Source: Halobacteriales archaeon YIM A00013 (GTDB lineage: Archaea > Halobacteriota > Halobacteria > Halobacteriales > Haloarculaceae). From it: a DNA stretch of 64,000 nt. The stretch covers positions 124,001-188,000 of the forward strand of contig JAKCFM010000001.1 in the NCBI GenBank assembly GCA_025041195.1. The letters are read 5' to 3'. Made by a program: the position numbers and the translations under genes. Positions 10,555 to 64,000 of this stretch are shown here, in pieces. Numbering within the stretch: position 1 is the first letter of the stretch; every line of letters begins with the position of its first letter. The notes beneath the pieces were generated by a model. That model saw only the letters and a program-made list of their open reading frames with translations, had not been told where the DNA came from and ran no database searches.

Positions 10555-10715
10555 CACCGCGAGCGGAGCGAGCGGCCTTTTTTGGTCCAGATTTTTTGCT
10601 TGAGTGGTGCACGGAGTGCACCCGAAATCAAAAAAGGTGGAGTGTAGCGAGCGGCATTTTTTCATCAACGTTTTTTGCGTAAGTGGTTCGCGTAGCGAAC
10701 CCGAGCGGAAAAAAG
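10555..10715. repeat. Two tandem modules of T-tract, hairpin and A-tract
   Basis: Two related modules about 79 bp apart each contain a T6 tract, a 7-bp hairpin with a 3-nt loop and an A6 tract. The hairpins are GGTGCAC-GGA-GTGCACC at 10606-10622 and GGTTCGC-GTA-GCGAACC at 10685-10701. They lie in the 295-bp gap between convergent genes (10426 and 10722). The stem sequences differ while the geometry is kept, which points to a conserved structure. Convergent terminators or a degenerate non-coding repeat are both possible. Confidence 0.7.
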
Positions 10716-10721
10716 GTTGGT

Positions 10722-12789: not shown

Positions 12790-12987
12790 TGTATTTTAGA
12801 AGTAGAGTGTGGGGTTCGAATGAGGGAGGTCGCGCGGAGCGGAGCGAGTGAAGTTACAGGGATTATTCGTCTTCTTCCAGCCCCTCGGCCCGGCAATCGT
12901 TTCGATACCGATACGGCTGTCGGAGACGGGAAGTACGAGAACGACACGTGCGGAGCCGAAAAGGTCGGTGATCGTTTCGGTGATGAG

Positions 12988-12999
12988 ACACTCGAGTGT
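12988..12999. promoter_or_regulatory. 12-bp palindrome containing CTCGAG in the methyltransferase promoter
   Basis: ACACTCGAGTGT is a perfect palindrome centred on CTCGAG, the sequence recognised by XhoI/PaeR7I-type systems. It abuts a TATA-like stretch (TTATATACATTTAAATA starting at 12999) about 40 bp before the methyltransferase ATG. Methylation at this site could feed back on expression of the modification gene. This is inference from position and sequence. Confidence 0.5.
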
Positions 13000-13041
13000 T
13001 ATATACATTTAAATAGTAAAGGGGGGAAGCAGAGGTAAGAG

Positions 13042-14415: not shown

Positions 14416-14681
14416 ATGCTTCGGAAAAATCCTCTATAGGGATCAGCAGAGTAGGAATTAGTTTACTCCGTCGTGTGGATTTCGTGTATCTCATTTCCCC
14501 CGTGAGACTCTCCGACCATCAGTGATGATTCCCATCTGGCTCTCATTCCACATGCTATATTACCGTTTAATTAACAACCTGTACACAGTTCGCGCGTATC
14601 CTCGTAGTAACGCTTCGGGACGGCAAAGAGCCTCTCTCTCGGGTAGATCAGCGAAACGGAAGCAGACGACGTTCTTTTGAG

Positions 14682-15425
14682 TCAGTCGTTGACGTTGAGC
14701 TTGGTCTGTCTGTTGTCGATCTGCATCTCAACGTGCGCAACGAGGTCATCAAGAAACTGCTGGAACGACAGGTCCGGGTTCGGTTCCTCGAACCCGCCAT
14801 CAATTCCTTCGTCTTCGCCCGACGTGAGGAAGGCAGTTGCGTTTACGACATCTTGTCGTACCAGACGCTCGCAGAGCAGTCTGGCACGATCGATATAGGA
14901 CGCGTCGCGGTAGTCGTCGTCGACGTTGATGTTCGGTTCGTGTACTCGGACGGAACTGCTGGAGTCTTCGGTGTCAGCCATCAGAATAAGGTACCCAATC
15001 CACGGTGGCTTCGGCTGTTCGATGACACCGTTTTCGTACGCCATGTGGACGTCGATGTTGTTGCCGATGGCTTCCTCGACGCGATTGTTGAGGTTGTTGC
15101 CGAATGAGCTGGCGATGGATTTCAGTTCGATCGCAGCGAGCACCTTACCATCGTAGACGACGGCGATGTCCCATCGCTTCGTCGCGCGGAAGTATCCGGG
15201 GAGTGTGGCGTCGTGATCGTGGCAGATGTCTTCCCGCGGGAGACCGGCTTCGACGAGTGCGTCCTCGATAAGACCGGCGAAGCCGTCCATCTGTGCCCCA
15301 CCGAGTACCTGTGCGCGACGACCGCGGGCGGTGTTCTCGGAGTCTTTCTGGTCGTCTTCCTGATCGGAGAGCGTTTCCCAGTACCACTCTACGGCGTCTG
15401 ATACCTCATTCCTAATATCTACCAT
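14682..15425 (-). CDS. XhoI/PaeR7I-type restriction endonuclease
   Basis: The ATG at 15425 gives 247 residues, close to the length of XhoI and PaeR7I; in-frame sequence upstream of it looks non-coding. Conserved blocks include RAQVLGGAQMDGFAGLIEDA and GYFRATKRWDIAVVYDGKVL with AAIELKSIASSFGNNLNNR. The D...ExK pattern (WDIAVVYDG...IELKS) is the PD-(D/E)xK nuclease core, and FGNNLNNRVEEAIGN is typical of this family. It should cut DNA at CTCGAG unless methylated. It is convergent with the methyltransferase, with 266 bp between the two stops. At least eight CTCGAG sites are visible in this window. Confidence 0.88.
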   Translation of the reverse strand: MVDIRNEVSDAVEWYWETLSDQEDDQKDSENTARGRRAQVLGGAQMDGFAGLIEDALVEAGLPREDICHDHDATLPGYFRATKRWDIAVVYDGKVLAAIELKSIASSFGNNLNNRVEEAIGNNIDVHMAYENGVIEQPKPPWIGYLILMADTEDSSSSVRVHEPNINVDDDYRDASYIDRARLLCERLVRQDVVNATAFLTSGEDEGIDGGFEEPNPDLSFQQFLDDLVAHVEMQIDNRQTKLNVND

Positions 15426-15523
15426 ACGACTACGGGGCAATGCATCATGTGTAAATCTATCGTACCTGCCGCCTTCGACAAACGTTGGCTGTGGCACGAG
15501 TGCGGGGATCAACGCCTGGGTAG

Positions 15524-15727
15524 CTACCCATTACGATTGCCGAATTCGTTGAGCAGCTTCGAACGTCTGACATCGGCCGCCTCGGCCTGTGGGATCGTCG
15601 TGTAGTGCGCCTCCAGTGTGTCGGGCTCTCCATTAGCTGTCTCGACTTGACTTGCGTATCCACCGCTTCGCGCAAGCACCACGAGATGGAGCTCTGAACC
15701 GATCACCACGTAAGCCATCCCTACCAT
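15524..15727 (-). CDS. Small hypothetical protein
   Basis: A 67-residue frame from an ATG at 15727 (a second in-frame ATG lies at 15718). It lies in the gap between the endonuclease start and the HMG-CoA synthase start, divergent to the latter by 61 bp. The sequence (AYVVIGSELHLVVLARSGG, then LEAHYTTIPQAEAADVRRSK) has reasonable haloarchaeal composition but no motif I recognise. The divergent promoter position supports a real gene; the short length keeps confidence modest. Confidence 0.45.
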   Translation of the reverse strand: MVGMAYVVIGSELHLVVLARSGGYASQVETANGEPDTLEAHYTTIPQAEAADVRRSKLLNEFGNRNG

Positions 15728-29879: not shown

Positions 29880-29970
29880 TATACATCAACTAGCAATTTT
29901 AATATAATAAGAGATTAGGATATAATTGGGCACTAGAACAAACAGCACCGAGTCTTTCTGGATTGCTAGG

Positions 29971-30106
29971 GTGAACGTTCTACAGCTCCGTGACTTGGAA
30001 GGTTGAGCTGTTGGTGTTCATCTGAGGTCCGAGAATGGTGACAAACAATGGTTCTATCATGACCAATCCGAGTCAATCGTTGAAGATCCCCTCAAAAATA
30101 TCTCAT
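29971..30106 (+). pseudogene. Dead fragment of the 43996-type zinc protein
   Basis: Read in one frame, this stretch gives VLQLRDLEG, a TGA stop, AVGVHLRSENGDKQWF, YHDQSESIVEDPLKNIS. It aligns without gaps to the C-terminal third of the proteins at 43996-44355 (QLRDPLQDRAVGVHLRANDG...) and 63688-64000 (DPMENRSVGVHL...GDILKEIS). The stop replaces the conserved Arg (CGA to TGA), and no N-terminal part is found upstream. It is therefore an old remnant. Its last residues (LKNIS) resemble the 63-kb copy more than the 44-kb copy. Confidence 0.75.
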
Positions 30107-30152
30107 GGAGGAATCGATATTCCTGAATCGTCGTGTACCCTTTATATATCAG

Positions 30153-30248
30153 ACTGAAATCGTAGCAATCGGCGCACCGAAAGACACCAGCGAGATTTTT
30201 ATGTCGCTTGCGTGTGCCGATCGTTCGAATTTCGACTTGGAGTTTTAG
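30153..30248 (+). pseudogene. Internally deleted copy of the cupin/zinc gene 3' end
   Basis: The frame EIVAIGAPKDTSEIFMSLAC continues ADRSNFDLEF and stops. It matches the intact gene at 29389-29662 on both sides, but the roughly 180 bp encoding the zinc pairs are missing. The junction joins GTGTGCCGA directly to TCGTTCGAATTTC, and short CGA/CGATCG homologies at the ends suggest slippage or recombination between small repeats. It has no start codon context and should be inactive. Confidence 0.8.
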
Positions 30249-30315
30249 CGAGAGATGGAAAATAATAGAATATTGGAGGGATGGCGTGTTTGAGCTACGT
30301 CTCAATATCTGGATT

Positions 30316-31152
30316 TCATGTGCAGCTGTACACTGAAATTTCGTCTTGTGCAGTCCAATTTCGGGGGACTCGGAGACCAGTGACGTCTAGCATCCCGATA
30401 CCGATTTTAAAGTTAAACTGGGTTATGATATCTCTTGCCTGTTTCCATGTGTGAACGTAATCTGCATAGGCGACTGGAGCAGGGCTTTCTGGACCATTGT
30501 GTTGTACCTCGATAGATATGCTCCCTGTAACATGGCTACTGCTCCGTTCTTCCATCTGTTTTCTATCATTAACTTTGAAAATAACGCCTTCGGGCTTTGT
30601 ATCTTTCCCGTATGAAAATTCGAACCCTTTGGCTGAATTTGGGACCATTTGCAATTCAGAGGGATTGTAGGTGATAGAGACTCCATCTTCTGGTGCAGAA
30701 AGGGCACCTTGCCACTCGTCAATCGGCCGCACGTCGAACCCCCAACTGAGGGTTATCCCGATAGCGTTCCCACCGCGTACACAGTAGCCACCAAGTCCCA
30801 TATAACTAGCATCCGGACCTCCTGGAGGGTTGTAAATATCCTGGGGAGAGGGTTCACTCGTGGTTTGTGGTTTCGTACGAATGCTTCGCTGTGAACCTGG
30901 GACTGTTCCCCCATCTTCTGATTCCGTTGGATCTACTGCTATCACTGATAATGAGAATGGTAATTCATACTCTGCTGCGATTTCGTATGCTCTGGTAAAT
31001 TTGCCATTACGGAGCGCTTTCTCTATTGTGGTTTCAATTTTGGGATTTGTTTCTTGGTTTTCTCGATATTGTGCTGTTGTGACTCCTGACGGGAGGGGCA
31101 ATGCTGCTGCACACATTGCTCCCTTCATAAGAGACCTCCTCGAAATTTTCAT
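30316..31152 (-). CDS. Tat-exported protein of unknown function
   Basis: A 278-aa protein from ATG 31152 with the twin-arginine signal KISRRSLMKGAMCAAALPLP. The mature part includes FTRAYEIAAEYELPFSLSVI and a segment with YNPPGGPDASYMGLGGYCV. Later, IGITLSWGFDVRPIDEW and a long beta-rich C-terminal half appear. Two late Cys residues (YCVRGG and YSCT) could pair. I do not recognise the family. Codon use is AT-richer than core neighbours, suggesting transfer. It stands alone before a small membrane protein gene on the same strand. Confidence 0.65.
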   Translation of the reverse strand: MKISRRSLMKGAMCAAALPLPSGVTTAQYRENQETNPKIETTIEKALRNGKFTRAYEIAAEYELPFSLSVIAVDPTESEDGGTVPGSQRSIRTKPQTTSEPSPQDIYNPPGGPDASYMGLGGYCVRGGNAIGITLSWGFDVRPIDEWQGALSAPEDGVSITYNPSELQMVPNSAKGFEFSYGKDTKPEGVIFKVNDRKQMEERSSSHVTGSISIEVQHNGPESPAPVAYADYVHTWKQARDIITQFNFKIGIGMLDVTGLRVPRNWTAQDEISVYSCT

Positions 31153-31347
31153 ACTCTGCGACCACAAATATTAATATATATGGCAACTATATAAAATTAT
31201 CTTACACTATATTAAAATACAGAATAGAAGTGATTTCACTTTATAATTTTATGGTTTCATATCTGGTGGTCCTGTAGAGATTATCTCTTCTGTGATAATT
31301 AAGGGTGGGTGAAAATAAAAATTCGGAAATGTCGCTGCCCCCTGCTC

Positions 31348-31677
31348 TTAAGCGGCTAATCTCCCCGATCTATTTTGAAACTTATAAATGAAAATTGACA
31401 TACAGCAAATGACAACACCAAGGATAAACACGCCAGTAGCTATTTCTCCAGGAGCGAGAACGTGTTCTTGCTGTCCGGTTACAAGAATATATCCTTGCGC
31501 TAGCTGGGCTTGAATGGAGGTCACAAAGAAGAATCCAGCAGCACTAATAGTTCCAACAATGACACTCCAACGGAGCTGTGCGTTCCGAGGAAGGTTGAGA
31601 CGGCTTGTGTCAATATAGACGAGACCCACAGCCAACAGCACAACGATGGGGGAAAGGGAGAGTGGATTGATGCTCAT
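31348..31677 (-). CDS. Small membrane protein, three helices
   Basis: This 109-aa protein has three hydrophobic segments (SPIVVLLAVGLVYI, SVIVGTISAAGFFFVTSI and IATGVFILGVVICCMSIFIY) and a short positively charged C-terminus. No motif recognised. It lies 195 bp upstream of the Tat-exported protein on the same strand, so they could share an operon, but spacing is loose. Confidence 0.6.
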   Translation of the reverse strand: MSINPLSLSPIVVLLAVGLVYIDTSRLNLPRNAQLRWSVIVGTISAAGFFFVTSIQAQLAQGYILVTGQQEHVLAPGEIATGVFILGVVICCMSIFIYKFQNRSGRLAA

Positions 31678-31832
31678 GTGTACACTATGCGACTAAAACA
31701 ATATTACTATGTCTGTTAGGTTTTGAGAATATCAAAACAACCAGAGGAAAAATTGGTGGTGAGTTGACTAATCACGGAAGTAGAACATTTGAGTGCTCGC
31801 TCGCAAGTTGCCACCGATTTTGTTTGCTTCTC

Positions 31833-32776: not shown

Positions 32777-33215
32777 ACGTCTGATCTGTTCGTGATCACT
32801 AATAAACGCTCGTCCGCGACTGACGCTTCACCTTCATACCGGTCTCCGCAAGAGAAATGATATGAAAAATCACGACGCAATTTCGACCCATGTCATGGTT
32901 TCCCTCGATGAGGTTCTGGAGCAGGCAACGTGGTTCGTCGGGGAGTTCGTAGGCTGGGAACCGATCGTTCACCGTCTCAGCGTCCAAAAACCACCGTTCG
33001 ATGTCATATCCGGAGAGAATGACAGAATGGCCATCTACAACTCGTCTTCCGGGACCAGACTGATCTACTCCCTGTTGGGCTATTTAATGGAATTGGATAT
33101 ATGATGTTACGTTTGGAAACTCCCGAAACGATCCCATCTGTTGATCTCTTGGAATAAGTGCAATAATATCATAGATATCGGCAGGATTTTTCACTCTTAA
33201 ACTTTATCATTGTCT
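32777..33215. other. Gap upstream of cbiM holding a gene fragment
   Basis: A 439-bp stretch between the divergent cbiM and kinase genes. It contains a probable minus-strand gene fragment (32799-33083), an AT-rich end with TATA-like sequence before 33216, and no intact gene. Confidence 0.5.
32799..33083 (-). pseudogene. Possible fragment of an unknown gene
   Basis: An open minus-strand frame of 95 codons reads VVDGHSVILSGYDIERWFLD ... ELPDEPRCLLQNLIEGNHDM ... Composition fits haloarchaeal coding sequence better than the overlapping plus-strand frame. There is no ATG or GTG near its upper end, which opens directly after a TAA. A TTG at 32987 would give 62 residues. It is most likely a truncated gene. 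No family recognised. Confidence 0.35.
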
Positions 33216-34265
33216 ATGATTATCCGTAGTGACCGGCTCGATACCCTCACAGCTGCTTGCGATGGTATCAGCTCACGAGATCATCTCACGGCAGCGTCGC
33301 AGTCGTCACGCGGTTTCACGTTTTTTGTGAATTCGGAATCCACCGACGATACGCCAACGTACGTGCTCAAACTCGCAAAGATTGGCGACGACGATTCCGA
33401 GGTGAGCGAAATTTATCGCACAGCCCTCCCTTCTGACGCAACTGCTGTTCGGAAGCTTGCGGTTGAAGCGAGTGTACTACTGCAACTTTCAGCGACGGCT
33501 GTGCCAGTTCCTGCAGTATGTAATCGCGTTACTGACCCAGGCGGTGAGTTTCCACGCTATATTTTGATGGAATATGTCGACGGGATCGTGTTAGTGGAAT
33601 TGGGTGACTTACTGTCCACAACACAGAAATATGATATAATCGAACAGCTTGGTCGGTATCTCGCAGTTGTTCACGAGACTTTTTCGTTCGATCGATTCGG
33701 GGAGTTGGAAGTGATCAATGGTGAGTTGCGGGTTGCAGACGGGGCTAATCGTTGGGTAGATCTGTTCGATATTGAGATAGCGCAAGCGATCAAGCGCCTA
33801 GAGCAGACACCGCTTGCAGATTTGGCGCGACCGGCCCGAGAGTGGTACAACGATCGACGGGGCGAATTAGCCCACGAATTCAATTCAACGGCGATTCACG
33901 AAGATCCCAACCCACTGAATATTCTCATAGAGAATAATTCGACGCCAACAATCAGTGCGATTGTCGATTGGGAAGATATCATGGCCGGACCACCGGAACT
34001 GCAAATTACAATAGCCACCATCATGCTTGATCGACAGCTTGGAGATCTTGAGAGGCCCACGATCAGGCGTAGACTTTTGACCGGCTATGAAGCAGTTCGG
34101 GATCTTCCAACAGGCCATGAACAGCGTGTTGCGCTGTATACATTGAGACAGTGGCTCCAGTCATTCAGCAATCTTCAGCCCGGTCTTGATACCACTGAGG
34201 GACGTGGGGCGGCCGTCGAACGGCATGCACGATCCGTGTTCGAGGAGCTCGTAGGAACCCCTTGA
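33216..34265 (+). CDS. Aminoglycoside-phosphotransferase-family kinase
   Basis: This 349-aa protein of the APH/choline-kinase fold has an N-lobe with TYVLKLAKIG (candidate ATP-binding Lys), EASVLLQLSATAVPVPAV and the hinge FPRYILMEYVDGIVL. The catalytic loop is IHEDPNPLNILIEN (HxDxxxxN, with Glu in the second position) and the metal motif IVDWEDIMAGPPELQI. Such enzymes phosphorylate small molecules; antibiotic resistance is only one use. Downstream genes (NUDIX, SDR, nucleotidase-type phosphatase) suggest small-molecule or nucleotide metabolism. The ATG at 33216 is preferred to a TTG two codons earlier. Confidence 0.85.
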   Translation: MIIRSDRLDTLTAACDGISSRDHLTAASQSSRGFTFFVNSESTDDTPTYVLKLAKIGDDDSEVSEIYRTALPSDATAVRKLAVEASVLLQLSATAVPVPAVCNRVTDPGGEFPRYILMEYVDGIVLVELGDLLSTTQKYDIIEQLGRYLAVVHETFSFDRFGELEVINGELRVADGANRWVDLFDIEIAQAIKRLEQTPLADLARPAREWYNDRRGELAHEFNSTAIHEDPNPLNILIENNSTPTISAIVDWEDIMAGPPELQITIATIMLDRQLGDLERPTIRRRLLTGYEAVRDLPTGHEQRVALYTLRQWLQSFSNLQPGLDTTEGRGAAVERHARSVFEELVGTP

Positions 34266-35080
34266 TAGAACAGTTCGTTACGGCATATTCGGCGCTTGAC
34301 CGCCGGGAAATGTCCAGCGCGAACCCTCTCGCTGCGGCAGCCTCAGAAAGTGACGCGCAAGGATTGTCTTCCGGGTGAAGATCCGCTCTGAATACGTGGA
34401 GTGCGCCTATCTTGAATCCCCCAGCCGGGGTTCTGGCATGCCGTAGAAGCTCCACCTGTCAGTTACATCCATCACGCACACCGGTAACGACGAGAATATT
34501 GAAAACTGATAGTGGATCGTAGACGATCCATTTTATAAGCGATGACCGTAGTACTCAGCTATTGTTCTATAGTGTACTCAATCCGAATAATCGGAGAGCT
34601 CTTCGAGACTCCATCGAGTTGCATACTCATCGACTGTCGTTCGAATCTTTTTCCCGCTTCAATGGCCCGTTTTAATCCCCCAATTGTAGCCTCGTTCCGT
34701 TGAGGAATATATGCTATATACCGGAATCAGCGTTGAGGCGTTTCCTCAACATTCGAAACTGGCCGATGGAACTCCTGGCTGAGTCCAGCTGTGAGACCTC
34801 TATCGACGGAAAACTCCACCTCTGTTACGAACGAACTGTGTGAGGAAGCCAAAAACAGGACGGTGTCTGCGACCTCTTCGGGCCAATAGGATGGTACTTC
34901 TTCTCATTCACTATGCAGATCTTGAGGATGTGTACGACGTATCCGCGGCCCAAGATTCATGATAATGCAACTGTGATATCGGTGAAATTCTGAGACGACC
35001 AAGTGAATAGATTATGAAAACACCACTACTTTGATGTGTATAATAAAAGAACCTATTACGAGTGGGGTGGAGTAACTATC
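34266..35080. other. Intergenic region with rearranged remnants
   Basis: 815 bp without an intact gene. 34266-34500 contains short open stretches that I cannot assign. The minus strand at about 34575-34720 reads AYIPQRNEATIGGLKRAIEA and more before a stop, which looks like a gene end. 34702-34940 is the fused SDR/phosphatase remnant listed separately. The last 100 bp before the NUDIX gene are AT-rich and promoter-like. Confidence 0.5.
34702..34940. pseudogene. Deleted duplicate joining an SDR gene end to a phosphatase gene start
   Basis: 34702-34890 is a near copy of 37076-37252, the 3' end of the minus-strand SDR gene and the bases after it (minus-strand translation ends GLTAGLSQEFHRPVSNVEET, as in the intact gene). 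At CTCTTCGGGCCA it switches directly to ATAGGATGGTACTTC..., a copy of 38080-38120, the start of the plus-strand phosphatase gene (translation VLLLIHYADLEDVYD). About 830 bp, most of the SDR gene and the divergent promoter, are missing. Several substitutions show the event is not very recent. Confidence 0.85.
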
Positions 35081-35620
35081 ATGACTTCTTTCAGAGCCAC
35101 ATTCTGTCCAGATTGTGGTAGCAAGCTCGGCACACAATGGCTTGAACACAAAGAACGACCCTATTGTGAGTCCTGTGATCGGATTATTTTCCAGCGGCCG
35201 ATTCCATGCGCTGACGTTGCGGTCATTGATGGCGGTTACGTCCTTCTTATCAAACGGACCAACCCACCTCATGCTGGAAAATGGGCATTACCTGGTGGCG
35301 TTCTTGAAGCTGGCGAGCCACCGGCAGTCGGTGCTACCCGCGAACTCGAAGAAGAAACGGGGCTTTCCGTCACTCCAGCAGACCTGACAATCATTGGTGG
35401 CTATACAGCGACTGCGCCTCAGGGATGGTACAATGCTGGTTATATCTATGCTGTCCTATACGACAATGTAAGCGGTGAACCATCATCTGGTGGTGATGCA
35501 AAGGAGACACGCTTCTGGAATCTTGATGAACTCCAGTCGTCTGAGCAGGAACTCCGTCCCGAGCCAGATGATGAATCACATATTAAGAAATCGGTCAATG
35601 AACTTTACGAGGATCGATAA
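35081..35620 (+). CDS. NUDIX hydrolase with N-terminal zinc ribbon
   Basis: This 179-aa protein begins with a zinc ribbon (FCPDCGSKLG ... PYCESCDRIIF), as in NADH pyrophosphatase-type and related NUDIX proteins. A complete NUDIX box follows, from GGVLEAGEPPAVGATRELEE into ETGL, at about residues 68-92. A C-terminal WNLDELQSSEQELRP segment completes the fold. It should hydrolyse a nucleoside diphosphate derivative; the substrate is open. Both zinc pairs and the REUxEE residues are intact. It is in the AT-rich island and is preceded by a promoter-like AT stretch. Confidence 0.9.
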   Translation: MTSFRATFCPDCGSKLGTQWLEHKERPYCESCDRIIFQRPIPCADVAVIDGGYVLLIKRTNPPHAGKWALPGGVLEAGEPPAVGATRELEEETGLSVTPADLTIIGGYTATAPQGWYNAGYIYAVLYDNVSGEPSSGGDAKETRFWNLDELQSSEQELRPEPDDESHIKKSVNELYEDR

Positions 35621-35800
35621 TATTCTCTACAGATTAGAATAAAATATAATACCAACAGTTATCACACTTCACATAGGTTTGTATATCTAATGCCGGACAG
35701 ATCTGCGTTCTGTATCCGACCGGGGGCATCGCTCACATCGATCCTTCTTAATATTCCATGTTTCACACATTTTTCGAATGGCTCTCGTCCCATCATACTC

Positions 35801-37036
35801 ATGGATTCATACGATTACGAGCGGTTGCGTGCACGAGCAGTGGGAGAAAAGGGCGACCAAAAGGACCACTATCTCGTGATGGCGTTTGACGAGCTCCAAC
35901 GGCAAGGAATCGTGCATTTCATCGACTATGCAGCATTCTATTCGAACCACATCCAACAGCAGTATCTCCGCCAAAACCGAGCTTTGTTAGAGAATCTTTC
36001 CAAAGAAGTCCACCAGCAGGCGGCGCTAACGGGTATCGAGGAATGGACCAGATACGCTCGAGGTTCCTACCAGGAATCGTTTCGGACCGGGCTTGGCGAA
36101 GATGTAGACTCGTTCACCGATCTCCGACAACAGGAACAGAATCTTCGGCAGAATATCGAACGGGGAACTAGTGATCCTGTCCGATGGAATGAGAAATTAC
36201 TCAACAAAGCAGTTGCTGCGCTCGCGGTTCGAGAGGCAGCAGATGACGCGTTAGATTGTGGCGTCGACCGTGTCGTTGCTGGCTCTGAGCATCAGATCCT
36301 CCAAGATTTTCTCGATACGTGTCAATCAAATCGAAGTGGGTCGAAGTACGATAAGGGAGCTAACTCCCATTTGGAGCGTCTGAGTCCTTCTACCCGGATA
36401 GCTGGGATAGATCCAACACTAGCTTCCCAGACCCGCACAACGCTCAATACCGTTGGCGAAATTGCTGTCACCATCACCGGAGTCCAACACGATGATTGGA
36501 TCGTCCTTGGTCCGACGTTCGCACTACCACAATACTACGATCTCTTCGAGGATTTCGAGCAGATTCAACGGGAAATCCGGCGAGACATTGATGTTGAAAC
36601 GCTCGCAGCAGAGACGAAAACCGTTCTCGCCACGCTCGAACAGGAGACAGATGAGTTACTCTCGCCAACGAGGTTCCAATATGAAGTTGGCTGGGTTGCA
36701 GAACAGACAGAACTGTTCGATAACGATTCTCAACAGTCGCTTTCCGATCTGGTTGAGTACACACTCGGCCTGTCGAACTACTCGCGTGAGCTACGAGCAA
36801 TGGCCGATCGAGGAGATCTCTCACAGGCTGCAATTTTCCTTGGAGCCAGTATGGCTAGCAATCCGATCGTTCGAAACCAAAATACCGATATCCACCGTCG
36901 TGCACTGGAACTCACGCACCGGCTTGCTCCATCGTCAATCGATGGGCAAGCGATCGAACCATTTCGCCAAGAGCGAAGTGCCAAGACATGGAACGACCAC
37001 ACTGACTGGTATGAGACAATGGATCGAGTTCGTTGA
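35801..37036 (+). CDS. Unknown 411-aa protein, helical, accessory region
   Basis: From ATG 35801 the protein reads MDSYDYERLRARAVGEKGDQ and is rich in Gln, Glu and Leu, with long predicted helices (QNRALLENLSKEVHQQAALT, DLRQQEQNLRQNIERG, DVETLAAETKTVLATLEQET). An in-frame ATG at 35690 would add 37 residues that look unlike the rest. The C-terminal third contains DLVEYTLGLSNYSRELRAMA and AIFLGASMASNPIVRNQN. No catalytic motif is evident. It lies between the NUDIX and SDR genes; a structural or nucleic-acid-related role is possible but unproven. Confidence 0.65.
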   Translation: MDSYDYERLRARAVGEKGDQKDHYLVMAFDELQRQGIVHFIDYAAFYSNHIQQQYLRQNRALLENLSKEVHQQAALTGIEEWTRYARGSYQESFRTGLGEDVDSFTDLRQQEQNLRQNIERGTSDPVRWNEKLLNKAVAALAVREAADDALDCGVDRVVAGSEHQILQDFLDTCQSNRSGSKYDKGANSHLERLSPSTRIAGIDPTLASQTRTTLNTVGEIAVTITGVQHDDWIVLGPTFALPQYYDLFEDFEQIQREIRRDIDVETLAAETKTVLATLEQETDELLSPTRFQYEVGWVAEQTELFDNDSQQSLSDLVEYTLGLSNYSRELRAMADRGDLSQAAIFLGASMASNPIVRNQNTDIHRRALELTHRLAPSSIDGQAIEPFRQERSAKTWNDHTDWYETMDRVR

Positions 37037-37098
37037 CACCGTCCTATCAATATCATGACTTTCATCCGAGTCGTATCGAGGAACACTATATACCCGGA

Positions 37099-37932
37099 TC
37101 AGCGTTGAGGCGTTTCCTCAACATTCGAAACTGGCCGATGGAACTCCTGGCTGAGTCCAGCTGTGAGACCACCATCGACGGGAAACTCCACCCCTGTTAC
37201 GAACGAGCTGTGTGAGGAGGCCAAAAACAAGACGGTGTCGGCGACCTCTTCGGGCCAGCCAAAGCGCCCAAGCGGGTACTCATTGAGAAGTTCCTGGTGG
37301 GTCTCTGTTGGTGGATTGTTCATACGCTCCTGACGCTGTTTGGTCATAATCGTCCCCAATGAGATGACGTTCGATCTGATGTCGTGTGGCCCATAGTGGA
37401 CAGCAATCAGGCGTGAGAGGGCGTACAGCCCGGCTTTTGCGGCGGAATAGGCGCTCGCGCCAATGCCAGTGAGTGCATTCGCAGTGCTTACATGTACGAT
37501 TGATCCGCCGCCATCCGCTGCCATTGGCGGAATAACCTCGCGTGAGCAGAGATACGGCCCGGTAAGGTTTACTCCGAGGCTTTTTTCCCACGTCGTTGTA
37601 TCCACCGTATGCACCCTCCCGTCCTCACCGAACGACCCCCCAGCGTTGTTGACGAGGATATCGATGCCGTCTAACTCATCGAGCGTGCCGTCGACCAACG
37701 CACGCACGTCAGATTCATCTGTCACATCGCACTCGATTGGATAGACATTTCCTGGACCCTCATCGACCATTCCGTTGATTTCCGCTGCGGCGGTCTCGAT
37801 TCGGTCGGTCGAACGCGAGCATATCACTGTCTGTGCTCCTTCAGTCGCAAATAGATGGGCGATCACTTTTCCAATTCCCCGAGATGCACCTGTTATGATG
37901 GCTGTTTGTCCAGTGAGCGAATACTGCTTCAT
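37099..37932 (-). CDS. Short-chain dehydrogenase/reductase
   Basis: A 277-aa classical SDR. The cofactor motif TGASRGIGKVIAHLFA is at about residues 15-30 and DILVNNAGGSFGE near 90. The catalytic Ser is in IVHVSTANALTGIG, the Tyr/Lys pair in SAYSAAKAGLYAL, and the terminus has SSHSSFVTGVEFPVDGGLT. It should oxidise or reduce an alcohol/ketone with NAD(P). A truncated duplicate of its 3' end lies at 34702-34890. It is divergent to the phosphatase gene with a 151-bp AT-rich promoter region. Confidence 0.9.
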   Translation of the reverse strand: MKQYSLTGQTAIITGASRGIGKVIAHLFATEGAQTVICSRSTDRIETAAAEINGMVDEGPGNVYPIECDVTDESDVRALVDGTLDELDGIDILVNNAGGSFGEDGRVHTVDTTTWEKSLGVNLTGPYLCSREVIPPMAADGGGSIVHVSTANALTGIGASAYSAAKAGLYALSRLIAVHYGPHDIRSNVISLGTIMTKQRQERMNNPPTETHQELLNEYPLGRFGWPEEVADTVLFLASSHSSFVTGVEFPVDGGLTAGLSQEFHRPVSNVEETPQR

Positions 37933-38083
37933 ACCATGTACTACATAGTTCTGTCCCTAATAGGTCACTATTCTTAAAAAGATAGTATTACAGTACGTTA
38001 TTTTGTCTATCACATACCTAGTGCCACTCGTCAGATGGAAGGGTGGTAAACTAAAGCAATGTCTCCCAATCCCCACAGATAGG

Positions 38084-39460
38084 ATGGTACTTCGTCTCAT
38101 TCACTATGCAGATCTTGAGGACGTGTACGATGAGCCCGAGCACATTGGTCGGATCGCTGGCCTGATCAAACTGTTACGGGACGAACAGACAGTGATCATC
38201 GGTGCGGGCGATAATATAGCGCCGGGAGGTCTTAGTTTGACAACGAACTGCCAGCACACGCTCCCGTTCTTTACTGCCGCGGATGCCGCCGTTGAGACGC
38301 TGGGAAACCACGACTTCGATTATGGGAGAGAGACGCTCTTATCGGTGATTCGCAATACCCCTCAGACGTGGCTCTGTTCGAACGCCTACGATGGTGATGC
38401 TCTGTTCGGTGGCGACGTTGGCGTCGCTCCATCGACGATCCTTGAACGGGATGATCATCGGATCGGCCTATTCGGGCTGGCTAATCCCAAGACCGACACT
38501 CGATCGCCTGGAGCGCGATCGGTGTCGTTCACTGACCCGATTCAAGCGGCCACCGAAGCCATTGAGACACTCACGGACCAAAACATCGATCACGTTCTTT
38601 GTGTATCTCACCTCGGTGAACGGGACGGACACACAGATGAGATCGATCTCGCCCGAGCAGTAGATGTCGACGTGATCCTCGGCGGAGATCTGGACGATCA
38701 TCCTCGGACCGACTGGGTCAGTGATACGCTCGTGGTGCGGACTTCTGGTAAAGGCGTAGATCTGAGCGAGGTAGTTTACGATGGAGCATGGACGGCTACC
38801 CTTCATTCGGTCGCCGAAGCGCCGGTCGATCGATGCGTCGAACGGCAGTACCGTGATCTCCGTACGAGAGAGGGATTGGATCAGGTTGTTGGGACTGTTG
38901 ATACTCCGATTATCTGTTCATTAGAAACGCTATTTCAGGGAGAATCCCGTCTCGGGAACTTCATCACCGACGCCTATCGGTGGGTGACCGACGCGATGGT
39001 GGCCCTCCAACACAGTGCTGGAATTCAAGGAGTAACGCTTCAAGATACGGTGACAGTTGGTGATCTCATCCGCCTTGCTCCCTTCGATATGTCGGTGGTT
39101 CGGACCAAGATCTCTGGAGCAACACTCCGCGATATCATTGCTAGTGGTGGTGATCGCGTCTATCCAACCTATCCGGAGTTCTGGCACCTCCATTTGAGCG
39201 GTGGCACGGCAACGTTCGATTACAACGAGCGAGTGCTGACTGAGGTGACCGTCGATGGCGAACCGATCGATCCAACAGCCAGCTATAGCGTCGCTGCACC
39301 GGAGAACCTCCTTCGGTCACACGGTGTGTCACTTCCATCGGGCATACCGTGCTATGGTCTCCAGTATGAGACACTCGTCACTTACGCGCAGGAGATAGGT
39401 ATCGCTCCACAGCTTGAAGGCCGAATTACACGCCATGGCCTTGAAGAGACACATTCATGA
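38084..39460 (+). CDS. 5'-nucleotidase / UshA-type metallophosphatase
   Basis: This 458-aa protein has an N-terminal calcineurin-like domain: LIHYADLEDVYD (in place of the usual DxHG/D), IIGAGDNIAPGG, TLGNHDFDYGRE, VLCVSHLGERDGH and VILGGDLDDHPR. A C-terminal 5'-nucleotidase domain includes ESRLGNFITDAYRW, VTVGDLIRLAPFDMSVV and YSVAAPENLLR. No signal peptide is present, so it probably acts inside the cell on nucleotides or nucleotide sugars. The first metal motif is atypical: YADLED instead of DTHD/H. The ATG at 38084 follows a promoter-like region; the frame is open upstream. Confidence 0.82.
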   Translation: MVLRLIHYADLEDVYDEPEHIGRIAGLIKLLRDEQTVIIGAGDNIAPGGLSLTTNCQHTLPFFTAADAAVETLGNHDFDYGRETLLSVIRNTPQTWLCSNAYDGDALFGGDVGVAPSTILERDDHRIGLFGLANPKTDTRSPGARSVSFTDPIQAATEAIETLTDQNIDHVLCVSHLGERDGHTDEIDLARAVDVDVILGGDLDDHPRTDWVSDTLVVRTSGKGVDLSEVVYDGAWTATLHSVAEAPVDRCVERQYRDLRTREGLDQVVGTVDTPIICSLETLFQGESRLGNFITDAYRWVTDAMVALQHSAGIQGVTLQDTVTVGDLIRLAPFDMSVVRTKISGATLRDIIASGGDRVYPTYPEFWHLHLSGGTATFDYNERVLTEVTVDGEPIDPTASYSVAAPENLLRSHGVSLPSGIPCYGLQYETLVTYAQEIGIAPQLEGRITRHGLEETHS

Positions 39461-39520
39461 TTTACATTCCACCACGATTTCTTATAAGAAGTTCTTCTCC
39501 TTTTGATGTGTTCGAACGTG

Positions 39521-40984
39521 CTACTCGGTGAATCCGAACTGCGGCTCGTTCAACCAGGCGGTTAGATCCTCTACCGATGCCGTCGGCCCAAGGAGGGTTG
39601 TTGCAGCTGTTTTACACGCTGTTGGCAAACACTTCGCTATCTGCGTCGTTGAAGGAATAGAAACATTGAATACTGAGCTTTCAGCAAGTGGAGTCCCCTG
39701 AATGACTTGCTCTATGGCTGCTTCTCGTTGGGCACGGAGATTATCAAGCCCACTTTCGACACCGAATACAGATAGAAACTGTCGACGGAACAACGCCCGT
39801 CGTACAGCAAGAAAACTGCTCTCATTGTCAACATTTGGATTCAGCGAGTACCATGCTCGTTCGAGCGTGAACGTTCGGTCGACACGTTTGAGACGAACCA
39901 CTTCGATGACATGTCCTCGCAGTCGCTCGCACATGAAATCAACGTACATGGATCGTGTCTCATCATCGGCAACGATCGAGTCGTATGGTGTTGCGGTCGG
40001 TGGGCAGTCATGATAAAAGTCGGCTGCAGTAATCTCTTCGAGTGAGCGCCCGGCTCGTAGCTCCCCGATAATGTATGCAAGCCAGAGATCACAGTACTGT
40101 TCCCCGACCGGTGACCGGAGCTTTGCTTCCAACTGATCGAGATCGACATGGTGATCTTTCAGGAACTGCCAGAGTGTCGCTTCGGTGCCTCGTTGGGCCG
40201 CTACACGGGACTTAACAGCCCGTTGGATGGTCGGGTCAGTCGTCGTATAGTCTTCAGCTAGCATCCCAAGTAGCTCAACGGTGAATCGACTTGGTATCGC
40301 GTACAACGCTGCGAATCGCTCAAGGAATCCTGAATCGGTCCATGTACGTTTTTCGGCACCGACGAGAATCGACCGCACGTATAGTTCGAACTCCTTCCAC
40401 AGTGCTGTGTCGGGATCCAGCAGACACTGAACGTGCTCATGTTCATGCCGGCGAATCTTCTCTTTCAGAAGTGCTGTTGCCCGAGCAGCGGTTGGCTCGT
40501 CGAACGATTCGTACAATTCTGGCACGAGAAGATCACGCTTGAGAGCAGCGAGACTCTCGGAATCAACAGTGACCTGGCTTTGGATTACATCGATGAATGA
40601 CCGCTCGTCGATGTCGGTGAGGAGTACCGATCTAGATAACGAATCCACACTCATGGTCACCTGTCCATGCATCCCTAGCGCAGTACGAACATGGACATCG
40701 GGGACAGTCCCCCGAACGGTCGGCTCACCATCAGGAACAAACGTCAGCATAGAGGTAGGTGATGGAGAAGATGTATGAGTTCCAGCCGATTGACTCACAG
40801 CTACACCAGCTATCTCAAGGGATAGCTCAATAGCGAAAATCGGTGCTTCAGTCCGGATCAAGCCTTCTATTTGACTGATCTGGTTGTTTCGAATCTGAGA
40901 GACATTATCGTGGGACGAGCCAAACATTGGGCCGAGTTCGATCGTAATAGGTTGAGACAACTGCTGTCGATTGTCTGTTGGCAT
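39521..40984 (-). CDS. Unknown 487-aa protein with an HEHEH motif
   Basis: From ATG 40984 the protein reads MPTDNRQQLSQPITIELGPM. Residues 180-184 are HEHEH, which satisfies the HExxH zinc-peptidase pattern, followed at about 197-200 by KEFE, where gluzincins place a third ligand (Glu). The region after it (ELYVRSILVGAEKRTWTDSG) is helical. The C-terminal half shows DFYHDCPPTATPYDSIVADD and FALYAIPSRFTVELLGMLAE. I know no named family for it. A metallopeptidase is one reading; an accidental motif is the other. It is immediately downstream of a winged-helix regulator gene, 20 bp apart, so both form an operon. Confidence 0.6.
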   Translation of the reverse strand: MPTDNRQQLSQPITIELGPMFGSSHDNVSQIRNNQISQIEGLIRTEAPIFAIELSLEIAGVAVSQSAGTHTSSPSPTSMLTFVPDGEPTVRGTVPDVHVRTALGMHGQVTMSVDSLSRSVLLTDIDERSFIDVIQSQVTVDSESLAALKRDLLVPELYESFDEPTAARATALLKEKIRRHEHEHVQCLLDPDTALWKEFELYVRSILVGAEKRTWTDSGFLERFAALYAIPSRFTVELLGMLAEDYTTTDPTIQRAVKSRVAAQRGTEATLWQFLKDHHVDLDQLEAKLRSPVGEQYCDLWLAYIIGELRAGRSLEEITAADFYHDCPPTATPYDSIVADDETRSMYVDFMCERLRGHVIEVVRLKRVDRTFTLERAWYSLNPNVDNESSFLAVRRALFRRQFLSVFGVESGLDNLRAQREAAIEQVIQGTPLAESSVFNVSIPSTTQIAKCLPTACKTAATTLLGPTASVEDLTAWLNEPQFGFTE

Positions 40985-41004
40985 GAGTTGCTTACGACGG
41001 AATT

Positions 41005-42144
41005 CTACGACTGGCCGTCCTCTCGTTGATCTGCTTGTCGGCTTACTCCGGAAAGCAGAGACCATGGGCTCACCGTATCGAGGGACAACTCCGCCCCTTC
41101 CAATGGATGAAGTTCGTCCCCCATCTGCAACGTCCAATATGGGATTAATTCCGCATCAGTGCCATGCTCTTCAAGTAAGTGGGAGGCTCGTTCTACCAGT
41201 TCTTTCGGCGTCATCGAATTAAGTGGCAGCACGGCTGTAGATTGTGTTTCTGTTTGCTCTGTCACTTCCTCTGTGTCGGAAACCAGCCAGTATGCCGGAA
41301 TCAGGACGGGCGTTTTCTCTGCATCGGTCGACGCAGCGGTGTGCGGTTTGCTCCCTCCCGTAAACTGCCGCGGATCGATCTGATTAGCGACCCTGTCAGT
41401 GACGGTGGTAGCAGCCGGAGCAGACGATGGTTGTGAGTCTGTCCGGGCTGCATCATCTGACTGAGCGTTCTCAATGTGTGTATCCCGATCGTCCGGTTCC
41501 TCAAGCAGATCCACGATCCGGTGCAACAGACAGGCGTGTTCTTGTCCTTTCTCCGTGAGTGTGCAGTTGTCGCCATTGAATTCGATCGCATCTGCATTAT
41601 CAAATCGCCGCAAGATCGTGCGAACCTGCTCGGTGGTAGTACTTTCACCTCGTTCGCTATGTCGCTGAGAAACATTGTTAACAATTACCTTGACTGAGAC
41701 TGAACGCGGAGTACCAAGGAGATCAACGATACCACTCCGATCACGAAGTGCCTCAAGGGTGAAAATGGGTGTTGCAGTACGAGAATCGCAGAGTGGCGTG
41801 AGACAGTCTGCAACCTGCTCTACATCCGTGTCGGTCTGCCAGTCAATTGTTGCCAGATCAACACCAAATCGATCAAACATCCCATCGAACAGTCCGATCA
41901 TCGTTCTGCCAGTATCCGTTCCGGTGTAGCGTTGTCGGCCCTTCATAACCAGTGGGAGTGGGAGCTCTTCGAGAGAAAGCAAGTACTTCGAAACAGTGGA
42001 TCGCGCGCTCCCGATCATCTCCGCGATATCGCCCTGTGTTTGGGGATCCTCATCGACAACGATTAGCAACGTCGCAAGCGTCCGTGGAGTTAACGTCTGC
42101 AGGATCTCACCGGCTTGAGCGAGCAGGTCAGTCGGTGGATCCAT
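41005..42144 (-). CDS. Winged-helix regulator with long C-terminal extension
   Basis: This 379-aa protein has an N-terminal MarR-like winged-helix domain: LTPRTLATLLIVVDEDPQTQ, GDIAEMIGSARSTVSKYLLS and a wing around MKGRQRYTGTDTGRTMIGLF. A second wHTH-like segment follows with STTTEQVRTILRRFDNADAI and EFNGDNCTLTEKGQEHACLL. A polar linker (about 230-280) leads to a C-terminal segment with LIPAYWLVSDTEEV and SMTPKELVERASHLLEEHG. It is probably the local regulator. It is divergent to the TFB gene, and the intergenic region carries an 8-bp inverted repeat. Confidence 0.7.
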   Translation of the reverse strand: MDPPTDLLAQAGEILQTLTPRTLATLLIVVDEDPQTQGDIAEMIGSARSTVSKYLLSLEELPLPLVMKGRQRYTGTDTGRTMIGLFDGMFDRFGVDLATIDWQTDTDVEQVADCLTPLCDSRTATPIFTLEALRDRSGIVDLLGTPRSVSVKVIVNNVSQRHSERGESTTTEQVRTILRRFDNADAIEFNGDNCTLTEKGQEHACLLHRIVDLLEEPDDRDTHIENAQSDDAARTDSQPSSAPAATTVTDRVANQIDPRQFTGGSKPHTAASTDAEKTPVLIPAYWLVSDTEEVTEQTETQSTAVLPLNSMTPKELVERASHLLEEHGTDAELIPYWTLQMGDELHPLEGAELSLDTVSPWSLLSGVSRQADQREDGQS

Positions 42145-42464
42145 TGTGGAATTTGGCTGTGGCACACTCGAAAAATGTTATCCTCAATTGTAACTGTTTC
42201 TATTGCATGGATGATAGAGTTACAGTTCTCTTACTGTTCCAATCCCACTGTAACCAAACGATATCACACTAATCCAGTACCACTAACCGTCTTCCAGCAC
42301 CATCGTTATCACATCATTGTTCCAAATACGCCATCATAGCTAGAACATTTTTATAGTTGTAGCTAACATAGATATGGTAAGTACATGGTTGGTCGAGAAC
42401 CAATGGATTGCAAGCCTCTGTCTAGTGCCACGCAAGCAGTGTGGTGGAGATGGGAAGTCATAAG
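42145..42464. other. Divergent promoter region between the regulator and TFB genes
   Basis: 320 bp, AT-rich, with the inverted repeat described separately and a TATA-like element (TTTTTATAG near 42345-42355). No coding potential. Confidence 0.6.
42190..42254. promoter_or_regulatory. Operator-like repeats of an ACTGTAAC motif
   Basis: GTTACAGT (42219-42226) and ACTGTAAC (42247-42254) form a perfect 8-bp inverted repeat with 20 bp between. A related GTAACTGTTTC (42190-42200) and TTACTGTTCC (42231-42240) repeat nearby. The cluster lies between two divergent regulator genes and is a good candidate for autoregulation. Confidence 0.5.
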
Positions 42465-43400
42465 ATGGAGTCTCCAATGAACGCTCGTACTTCCCCCGTA
42501 CAGGATGTATCAACGTGTCCTGACTGTGATGGAGCTATCACATCCGGTACGGCCTCTGATGAAGTCGTCTGTGATACGTGTGGGCTCGTTGTTACCGAGG
42601 ATCGTCTTGATCGTGGCCCAGAGTGGCGCTCGTTCAGCTTCGAAGAAAACCAACAAAAATCCCGCGTCGGCCCGCCAACGGATCGGTCACTCCACGATCG
42701 TGGCCTGTCGACCACGATCAGCTGGGCTGACAAGGACGCGAACGGGAACGTGCTACCGGCGCAGAAGCGCCGGCAGATGAACCGGCTTCGAACGTGGCAT
42801 CACCGCTCTCAAACGCCTGACTCAAAGCACCAATACCGCAGACAGGCACTCGGAGAGATCGACCGTATGGGGTCAGCGCTCGGTCTTCCAACGGATGTCC
42901 GCAAGACAGCTGGAGACATCTTCCGGCAGGCACACCAGACCGGAATCGTGGTTGGTCGATCGATTGAGGCAGTGGCAGCAGCTGGGCTGCACATCGCCGC
43001 CGCAATAACTAGCCTCCATCGAACGCTCGACGAGATCGCCCACGTTGCGAGAGTCAACCGGACAGCCATCGCACGGGCGAAGCGGGCGATCAACACCGAA
43101 TTCAATCTCGCAATCGAACCCAGTCATCCATCGACATTTCTGGAGCGGTTCGGATCGGAACTCGATCTGAAAGAAAAATCCATCCAGAAAGCACGGGCGG
43201 TGCTTGAATCAGCTCCTGAGGAGTATCTCGGCTCAGGAGCCAGCCCCGTCACCATTGCGGCCTCTGCACTCTACCTGGGTGACAGACTCACTGGCGGACC
43301 AGCAGTCACCCAGAAGGAAGTCGGAGACTGCTGTGATATCTACGATAGGGTGATCCAGGACCACTACCCACTGCTCAAAGAGTTCTACGAGGTGCGCTGA
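42465..43400 (+). CDS. tfb: Transcription initiation factor TFB
   Basis: This 311-aa TFB has an N-terminal zinc ribbon (CPDC at 18-21, CDTC at 36-39), a B-reader/linker region (GPEWRSFSFEENQQKSRVG, then TTISWADKDANGNVLPAQKR) and two cyclin-like repeats. The repeats are around EIDRMGSALGLPTDVRKTAG and ERFGSELDLKEKSIQKARAV. It recruits RNA polymerase with TBP and the BRE. Haloarchaea use several TFBs as alternative sigma-like factors. The exact start is uncertain: in-frame ATGs lie at 42450, 42465 and 42477 and a GTG at 42441. Three small genes follow in overlap, an unusual setting for a TFB. Confidence 0.9.
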   Translation: MESPMNARTSPVQDVSTCPDCDGAITSGTASDEVVCDTCGLVVTEDRLDRGPEWRSFSFEENQQKSRVGPPTDRSLHDRGLSTTISWADKDANGNVLPAQKRRQMNRLRTWHHRSQTPDSKHQYRRQALGEIDRMGSALGLPTDVRKTAGDIFRQAHQTGIVVGRSIEAVAAAGLHIAAAITSLHRTLDEIAHVARVNRTAIARAKRAINTEFNLAIEPSHPSTFLERFGSELDLKEKSIQKARAVLESAPEEYLGSGASPVTIAASALYLGDRLTGGPAVTQKEVGDCCDIYDRVIQDHYPLLKEFYEVR

Positions 43401-43777: not shown

Positions 43778-44006
43778 CCACAGCAACACAACGCAATTCG
43801 ACGAAACGCATCGCTGTCGAACGATTACGACCGACCATCGGATGGTTAGAACCTGCGAGTCAGTGTTTGGCGCTGCAGTCTGTCCCCACAACGGCTGCCG
43901 GACACCGCTCCATGGAGATTCATCCGAGTTTGTAAACACACCCTTTCGCTGTCTTGGATGCAACTGGATCGTCGTCATTGACAAGGAGGCCATCGATGGC
44001 CTGTGA
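43770..44006 (+). CDS. Small four-cysteine zinc protein
   Basis: A 78-aa protein, start overlapping the PadR-like gene by 8 bp and its end overlapping the next gene by 11 bp. Two cysteine groups, AVCPHNGC and RCLGC, and an extra Cys in VRTCESVFG could hold one zinc. Recurrent small zinc proteins in haloarchaea often lie in such overlapping operons. Function unknown; a role tied to the TFB is inferred from position only. Confidence 0.7.
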   Translation: MTNHSNTTQFDETHRCRTITTDHRMVRTCESVFGAAVCPHNGCRTPLHGDSSEFVNTPFRCLGCNWIVVIDKEAIDGL

Positions 44007-44355
44007 GCACGAGCCCCTACGCATCAGCATCGTCGAAACCTCCGGCACAACGGTCGAAATCGAGGCCGAGTGTCGTCACTGTGGGACACAACTATGGACA
44101 GCAGCAGAATTGATGGCCGTCGGTAACTACTCCGTCGGAGATCAATTTGAAGGTCCAGAGGGACGCCGCTGGACGATCCTCAATCCTAGGACACCAGGTC
44201 AGGCTGGATCAGCAGGATTAAAAATCGAACAGCTCCGTGATCCGCTCCAGGATCGGGCTGTCGGTGTCCATCTGAGAGCGAACGACGGCGATGAGCAGTG
44301 GTTTCAGCAAGCTCAATTTGAGTCCATCGTTGGTGACATCCTGGTGGAACTCTGA
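43996..44355 (+). CDS. Zinc protein of a repeated accessory family (intact copy)
   Basis: A 119-aa protein starting MACEHEPLRISIVETSGTT. Cys3/His5 with CRHC near residue 31 could bind one metal. The conserved core is VEIEAECRHCGTQLW, then GDQFEGPEGRRWTILN, GLKIEQLRDP and VGVHLRANDGDEQWF with FESIVGDIL at the end. The same core recurs in the gene at the right edge of the window (63688-64000) and in the fragment at 29971-30106. It overlaps its upstream neighbour and is followed at once by a broken zinc-ribbon reading frame. Unknown function. Confidence 0.75.
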   Translation: MACEHEPLRISIVETSGTTVEIEAECRHCGTQLWTAAELMAVGNYSVGDQFEGPEGRRWTILNPRTPGQAGSAGLKIEQLRDPLQDRAVGVHLRANDGDEQWFQQAQFESIVGDILVEL

Positions 44356-44711: not shown

Positions 44712-45402
44712 ATGTTCGAGCCAGTGGCATGCGCTCCCGATCTACCAAGCGAGTCAAAGGACTTGCTAAGCGACTTTCTGAGCCGATTTAGCGATACGGA
44801 GGTCATGGATTCCATGCCGGCATTGGTTTTCGTTGATGTGTTGGCTGGAGAAAAACCAGCGATGATTTTCCAGCCCAACGAGAATCAATTTCCCAACCAT
44901 CGCTTTGCGCCACACCAGGGGCTTGCTGATCTCTGTGATCAGCTTGGATTACACGTGTCGTTCCGTGCTGGCACGAATTTCGTTTTTGTTGCTGCCAGTC
45001 GTGGACGCCTTGATCTCGTCCCAACCAATGGCCGTCGCAAACGGTCACGAGGATGGGCCAAGCGCCTTGGCGTGATCCTCGGTTATCCTCCGTCAGCGGT
45101 GCAGACCTTCATGAATCAGGACCAGCCATGGACAGAACCAGCCATGGACAGAACCAGCTGATCACGTTCGGGATGGCCATTTCACACCCGAAGAGATTGC
45201 TGATGTGGGGTTTGTTCCATATCGTATGGATGATTCCGTGCAAGGCTACGAACGGGCGATTCGACGCGGTCAGCGCGCACGTGCAAGGTATGAAAAGCTC
45301 GCGGAGGAATGGGACTTGCCGCAGCTCGCCGAATGTGTCGAACAGCAGCGCGAAAAATTTGTTGAGAATGCGACTCCCAAAGTCGTACCTGCAGATGACT
45401 AA
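44712..45402 (+). pseudogene. Unknown gene split by a 16-bp tandem duplication
   Basis: The first part reads MFEPVACAPDLPSESKDLLS ... RGWAKRLGVILGYPPSAVQT and stops at 45159-45161. With one copy of the repeat AGCCATGGACAGAACC removed, the frame continues as QPWTEPADHVRDGHFTPEEI and then ADVGFVPYRMDDSVQGYERA to a TAA at 45400-45402, giving 224 residues. The duplication (45124-45139, 45140-45155) therefore causes the break. The C-terminal helical part (ARARYEKLAEEWDLPQLAEC) looks well preserved. As it stands, only a 149-aa product ending MDRTS can be made. Family unknown. Confidence 0.8.
45124..45155. repeat. Perfect 16-bp tandem duplication
   Basis: AGCCATGGACAGAACC occurs twice in direct succession inside the gene at 44712-45402. 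16 is not a multiple of three, so the second copy shifts the frame by one. Precise loss of one copy would restore a single reading frame. Confidence 0.95.
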
Positions 45403-63237: not shown

Positions 63238-63690
63238 TCAGTTGAGGAGCACCGCCGCTAAATGCGGTCGCTGGAGTCTGAATCCAGCCACTGTGTACTG
63301 TGATAGTAGAACTTCTTCACGATGAAGTCTCTCCTCAATGGATTCAATGGGTTGACCCCTGAGCTGGGCCTCAAACGACTCTATCAGATTATCATCAGCG
63401 ATTACCTGCTCAAGGGTTCCACCCTTACTCTCACTAAATTGATATATAATACTATCTTCAAACAGCAGTCGTCCTGTGGTATTTCCGTCTTCTTTGATGA
63501 TCGACCGACCTTGCGGCTGAGGTGGGCGATCAATTAAATTTGGAGGTATTGACTGGTGGAACATGACCCGACACCGACGACACGATACCTCTGTTGTATG
63601 AGGTCCACGCTGTCGGATTCTGAGGGCATCCGTTAGATTAAACGGGTATTCGCAATCCGGGCAGACAAAACCTAGTGGGGGAACTATTCA
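63238..63690 (-). CDS. Zinc-ribbon companion frame (second copy), no visible start codon
   Basis: One open frame of 150 codons runs on from the TGA stop of the upstream gene (63688-63690): FVCPDCEYPFNLTDALRIRQ, RGPHTTEVSCRRC, then RVMFHQSIPPNLIDRPPQPQ and GRSIIKEDGNTTGRLLFEDS to a stop at 63238. The two CxxC pairs (CPDC, CRRC) form a zinc ribbon. There is no ATG, GTG or TTG before the CPDC pair; the first ATG (at 63564) comes after the whole ribbon. Either translation enters by stop-codon readthrough or reinitiation, or the gene is damaged. The same protein is encoded, with frameshifts, at 44355-44631. Confidence 0.6.
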
Positions 63691-64000
63691 TGAAATCTCC
63701 TTCAGGATATCTCCAATTATATACTCAAATTGGTCGTTTCGAAACCACTGCTCGTCTCCGATTGTGGATTTCAGATGTACACCAACTGAACGATTCTCCA
63801 TTGGATCATAAAGCTGATCGATTTTGAGCCCTGCCTTTCTAGCCGGTCCTGGTGTTCTGTTATTGAGGATTGTCCACCTGTACCCTTCAGATCCTTTAAA
63901 TCTATCACCGATCGCATAATTTACAACAGGCATCAACTCCACTGATCCCCAGAGCTGTTTTCCGCAATTTCCACATTCAGCCTCGATTTCAACCACCGAT
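63688..64000 (-). CDS. Zinc protein of the repeated family, partial (window edge)
   Basis: Visible residues begin SVVEIEAECGNCGKQLWGSV and end FEYIIGDILKEIS. The core GDRFKGSEGYRWTILNNRTP and SVGVHLKSTIGDEQWF matches the intact gene at 43996-44355, though clearly diverged. About 18 N-terminal residues lie beyond the window. One CxxC (CGNC) remains visible. It directly precedes the start-less zinc-ribbon frame, the same order as at 44 kb. Confidence 0.8.
   Translation of the reverse strand, partial: SVVEIEAECGNCGKQLWGSVELMPVVNYAIGDRFKGSEGYRWTILNNRTPGPARKAGLKIDQLYDPMENRSVGVHLKSTIGDEQWFRNDQFEYIIGDILKEIS

Follow-up and report, generated by a model that had tools for sequence, protein, structure and literature searches.

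A perfect 16-bp tandem duplication splits one member of a multi-copy haloarchaeal gene family, probably as a young loss-of-function allele

A haloarchaeal gene was found to be split between two reading frames by a perfect 16-bp tandem duplication, whereas its orthologue in a sister species carries the repeat once and is intact. The gene lies in a 64-kb stretch of DNA, hereafter the window, which corresponds to positions 124001-188000 of contig C1 of a 3.73-Mb genome in three contigs (G000:C1:124001-188000). Very probably, the split gene represents an ordinary young loss-of-function (pseudogene) allele, i.e. a frameshift specific to this lineage that affects a single member of a haloarchaeal family which is multi-copy and restricted to its genus. 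Coordinates of the features are summarized in Table 1.

Table 1. Features of the split gene, in positions of the window
Feature	Position	Strand	Basis
Tandem array, 16-bp unit, two full copies and a third ACCAGC	45121..45158	+	TRF, offset identity
First copy of AGCCATGGACAGAACC	45124..45139	+	exact match
Second copy of AGCCATGGACAGAACC	45140..45155	+	exact match; orthologous site L017:6413-6428 has one copy
N-terminal frame cut to 149 aa, then TGA	44712..45161	+	ORF; 97% identity to the orthologue (intact, 224 aa) over its residues 1-142
Orphaned C-terminal frame, 86 codons and TAA	45142..45402	+	ORF; 94% identical to the orthologue

The 16-mer AGCCATGGACAGAACC stands as two perfect adjacent copies at 45124-45155, either of which can be regarded as the insertion, depending on the choice of counting. 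Identity at an offset of 16 spanned 22 bases, which defines an array at 45121-45158 that reads ACCAGCCATGGACAGAACCAGCCATGGACAGAACCAGC; the corresponding TRF row was 45117-45158. Both copies were the sole matches to the 16-mer in the window even when 2 mismatches were allowed (chance mean: 0.04). Tandem duplications were counted in the window, in a 79-kb stretch of the relative and in the family loci. No second perfect tandem duplication with a unit of at least 10 bp was present in the window, and a Markov simulation of 30 x 64 kb with the same dinucleotide make-up yielded 2 such duplications in total and zero with a unit of at least 14 bp. Since the window holds no other such duplication and the simulations gave none at a unit of at least 14 bp, the array is attributable to a real duplication event, not to a chance match.

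The frame opened by ATG 44712 comprises 149 codons and stops at TGA 45159-45161, and a second frame is open from the repeat through to TAA 45400-45402; because 16 mod 3 = 1, one added copy shifts the frame by +1. No further lesion relative to the orthologue was observed in the orphaned C-terminal frame (45142-45402). Its start codons were late internal ones only, for instance GTG 45205. Two ATGs inside the repeat (45128 and 45144) were considered as new starts for the C-terminal part and rejected, both being out of its frame.

The nearest relative among the genomes compared was the sister species Actinarchaeum halophilum YIM 93972 (CP071306.1; L017), which is among the haloarchaea described with hyphae and spores (PMC10067837). 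In its syntenic orthologue (91% DNA identity across 8.5 kb), the 16-mer occurs once and the frame runs uninterrupted for exactly 224 aa. Alignment of the window with A. halophilum left a single 16-bp gap in the gene, exactly at the duplication, and this gap was the sole indel >6 bp in the ~45 kb of the window that could be aligned. Among 53 comparable ORFs, one was split between frames, namely the gene with the 16-bp duplication. The locus thus combines a perfect tandem duplication that breaks the frame of an ORF with an intact one-copy form of that ORF. The first-pass annotation, made from the window alone, had described a perfect 16-bp tandem duplication that splits the gene at 44712-45402 and leaves a 149-aa product, and had deduced that the one-copy form would be a continuous frame of 224 codons; the two confirmed copies and the length of the A. 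halophilum orthologue bear out this description.

Other differences between the two genomes were also recorded. Stretches 34491-42606, 12849-15696, 29922-31831 and 32943-34312 of the window were without counterpart in the syntenic A. halophilum region; these stretches, the largest of about 8 kb, are either insertions in the window or deletions in A. halophilum. The segment at 63570-63994 showed a diverged (65%) inverted match to A. halophilum sequence equivalent to ~44.05-44.45 kb of the window, and may represent a paralogue of a small ORF (43954-44355). In addition, an imperfect tandem repeat with 1.9 copies of a 79-bp unit was observed at 10567-10717 of the window.

The one-copy allele reads CAGG-ACCAGC-CATGGACAGA-ACCAGC-TGATC, in which the ACCAGC hexamers are spaced exactly 16 bp; a 6-bp direct repeat of this sort is what replication slippage or microhomology-mediated duplication usually acts on. 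From this footprint, we infer that the hexamers of the one-copy ancestor mispaired during replication or repair, by which either of the two processes would have added exactly 16 bp; the added bases would have shortened the 224-aa protein to 149 aa, with its four C-terminal helices gone. Direct repeats of at least 6 bp at spacings of 10-25 occurred at about 5.8 per kb in the relative's sequence, indicating that the hexamer pair is not special. Through the same kind of slip, chance loss of one copy could restore the gene. Haloarchaea studied so far are described as polyploid (PMC4056108), so that one-copy and two-copy alleles could coexist in a cell.

Comparison of the window with the orthologue gave 4 synonymous and 4 nonsynonymous differences in the N-terminal part, and 10 synonymous and 6 nonsynonymous differences in the C-terminal part (C-terminal part: pN = 0.030, pS = 0.172, Fisher p = 0.0004). 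As pN was below pS and no second lesion was present, the C-terminal part was constrained by purifying selection during most of the time since the two lineages diverged. Judged from these sequences, the break is young compared with the divergence from A. halophilum, because the orphaned 3' half is still undecayed, in agreement with the well-kept C-terminal sequence and young break initially proposed. If the duplication were as old as the species split, with 4.5% divergence in each lineage, the probability of observing no difference between the 16-bp copies would be about 0.24; hence their perfect identity is weak evidence of youth, and the selection pattern carries more weight. Purifying selection on the C-terminal part would also be expected if the gene were still used via switching or via separate translation of this part, although most of the signal predates the break under the loss and continued-use readings alike. 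The intact orthologue, the single disabling lesion and the little downstream decay are the features of a recent pseudogene allele.

At least 24 full-length family members were found in genomes of the genus, and all 24 aligned homologues (24/24) run through the junction; further loci raised the number of distinct uninterrupted members to about 35. The first-pass annotation had pointed out that a broken gene would be contradicted by homologues all ending where the 149-aa product ends, and 0 of the about 35 distinct homologues end there. Three of the eight invariant residues of the family (G181, W195 and L200) are located in the severed C-terminal part. When the intact orthologue was modelled with AlphaFold2 (mean pLDDT 85.6, pTM 0.85), the break fell in the loop that separates helix 127-135 from four helices predicted with good confidence (143-215). 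Loss of function through the frameshift is likely, since the homologues are open through the junction, and invariant residues as well as predicted helices are severed.

Across the loci compared (contigs C1, C2 and C3 of the window's genome; L002-L016 and L071), about ten family members were counted in the window's genome, the majority on contig C3 (256 kb), and a number of further genomes within the genus showed comparable expansions. Outside the genus, weak partial matches were found only in five genomes of one other genus (392 genomes of the order sampled). Family fossils broken by internal stops, with no duplication involved, were found in three genomes: a member near 11 kb of C3 in the window's own genome is decayed with three internal stops (L058, G000:C3:10400-12000), those of G004:C21 and G005:C3 have several stops, and one near 174 kb of G005:C2 has one internal stop. 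The family is of the birth-and-death type and of dispensable appearance, and copy loss is commonplace in it.

Searches with the family protein gave little indication of its function. No model of Pfam or NCBIfam reached its cut-off. DUF3793 (PF12672) was rejected, with 14-16 bits against a gathering cut-off of 25.1 and a match confined to residues 115-137, i.e. 23 residues round an LGYP motif. No convincing match was obtained in PHROGs, no relative in a PDB sequence search (best E = 0.064, over a 34-residue stretch), no family relative in a single-protein scan of a viral collection, and nothing significant for the predicted fold by Foldseek. The best VIA-align row was 2guk of P. gingivalis (Z = 8.6, rmsd = 2.6, 100 residues of the N-terminal part only), which is near the warning level of the tool and is itself a protein of unknown function. 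Among the neighbour genes of family members, none was consistently recurrent so as to point to a function.

The first-pass annotation had also raised the possibility of a phase-variation switch, in which the copy number of the 16-bp unit sets the frame. Such a toggle would be reversible, in the manner of pneumococcal capsule genes. This idea draws on a perfect duplication within an ORF, whose length is not a multiple of 3 and which is flanked by microhomology, and on two precedents, namely the spontaneous tandem sequence duplications in Streptococcus pneumoniae capsule genes (type 3 locus, cap8E and tts; Waite et al. 2001, 2003, as cited in PMC4022640) and the fungal microhomology-mediated tandem duplications, with fission yeast ssp1 as an example (review: PMC13207564). 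Both precedents show that such short duplications are able to revert. Like the capsule gene duplications, the present one is short and perfect, breaks the frame of an ORF and could be reversed by losing one copy; however, switching of the capsule genes was observed in culture, whereas the archaeal gene is known from one genome state. As in ssp1, a short direct microhomology of the one-copy allele bounds the duplication and a premature stop results, but here the host is an archaeon. The gene also resembles simple-sequence contingency loci in that the unit is not a multiple of 3 and copy number sets the frame, but differs from them in having no multi-copy tract and no conservation of the repeat in relatives.

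Several observations argue against such a switch. Each genome shows one copy state only (two copies in the window, one in A. halophilum). A contingency locus would be expected to retain its repeat tract at the corresponding position in related genomes, but here no relative keeps the repeat, and distant relatives have short, unrelated direct repeats at the site. None of 50 family gene stretches (28 kb) contained a perfect tandem duplication of at least 8 bp, where the window's own gene was represented by two separate pieces so that its array was not spanned. Hexamer pairs of this sort are common (about 6 per kb), and paralogues were lost through ordinary stops. Reversion at ≤ about 1e-5 is far below that of typical contingency loci, and reversibility, which is common to any such duplication, is not evidence for a switch. 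For a pneumococcal duplication of 9 bp, reversion is put at such a frequency (≤ about 1e-5; PMC4022640). With one copy state per genome, no repeat kept in relatives and paralogues dead by ordinary mutation, we consider a switch very improbable, and marginally more so its specific form, archaeal phase variation in which microhomology-mediated tandem duplication reversibly toggles the frame of one paralogue from a genus-specific family, in haloarchaea related to hypha- and spore-forming strains.

An assembly or sequencing artefact, with a true sequence that is one-copy and a gene that is intact, is likewise very improbable. The one-copy state of the sister species and the lack of any other split gene in the window are what such an artefact would predict, but the remaining window genes are unbroken in an otherwise good assembly, and a 16-bp duplication with exact slippage microhomology would be typical of real mutations, not of read errors. 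Separate translation of two parts acting together, with the C-terminal part made from an internal start (e.g. GTG 45205), fits a C-terminal frame that is open and, compared with the orthologue, shows purifying selection, but has hardly any probability, as there is no start of this frame near the break, the 45205 start would drop helices 143-148 and 154-162, the family has no known split homologue and the selection signal is mostly older than the break.

As such a young allele, inactivated by an ordinary mutation, the gene would be a clean case of microhomology-mediated tandem duplication inactivating a haloarchaeal gene, caught ahead of decay, and the two hypothetical proteins annotated at this locus would correspond to a single broken gene. 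If cultures showed the allele to revert, it would be an example, rare among archaea, of phase variation based on duplication. More attention than the break may be merited by the family, which is lineage-specific and reaches up to about ten copies in a genome, in a genus that includes hypha- and spore-forming strains.
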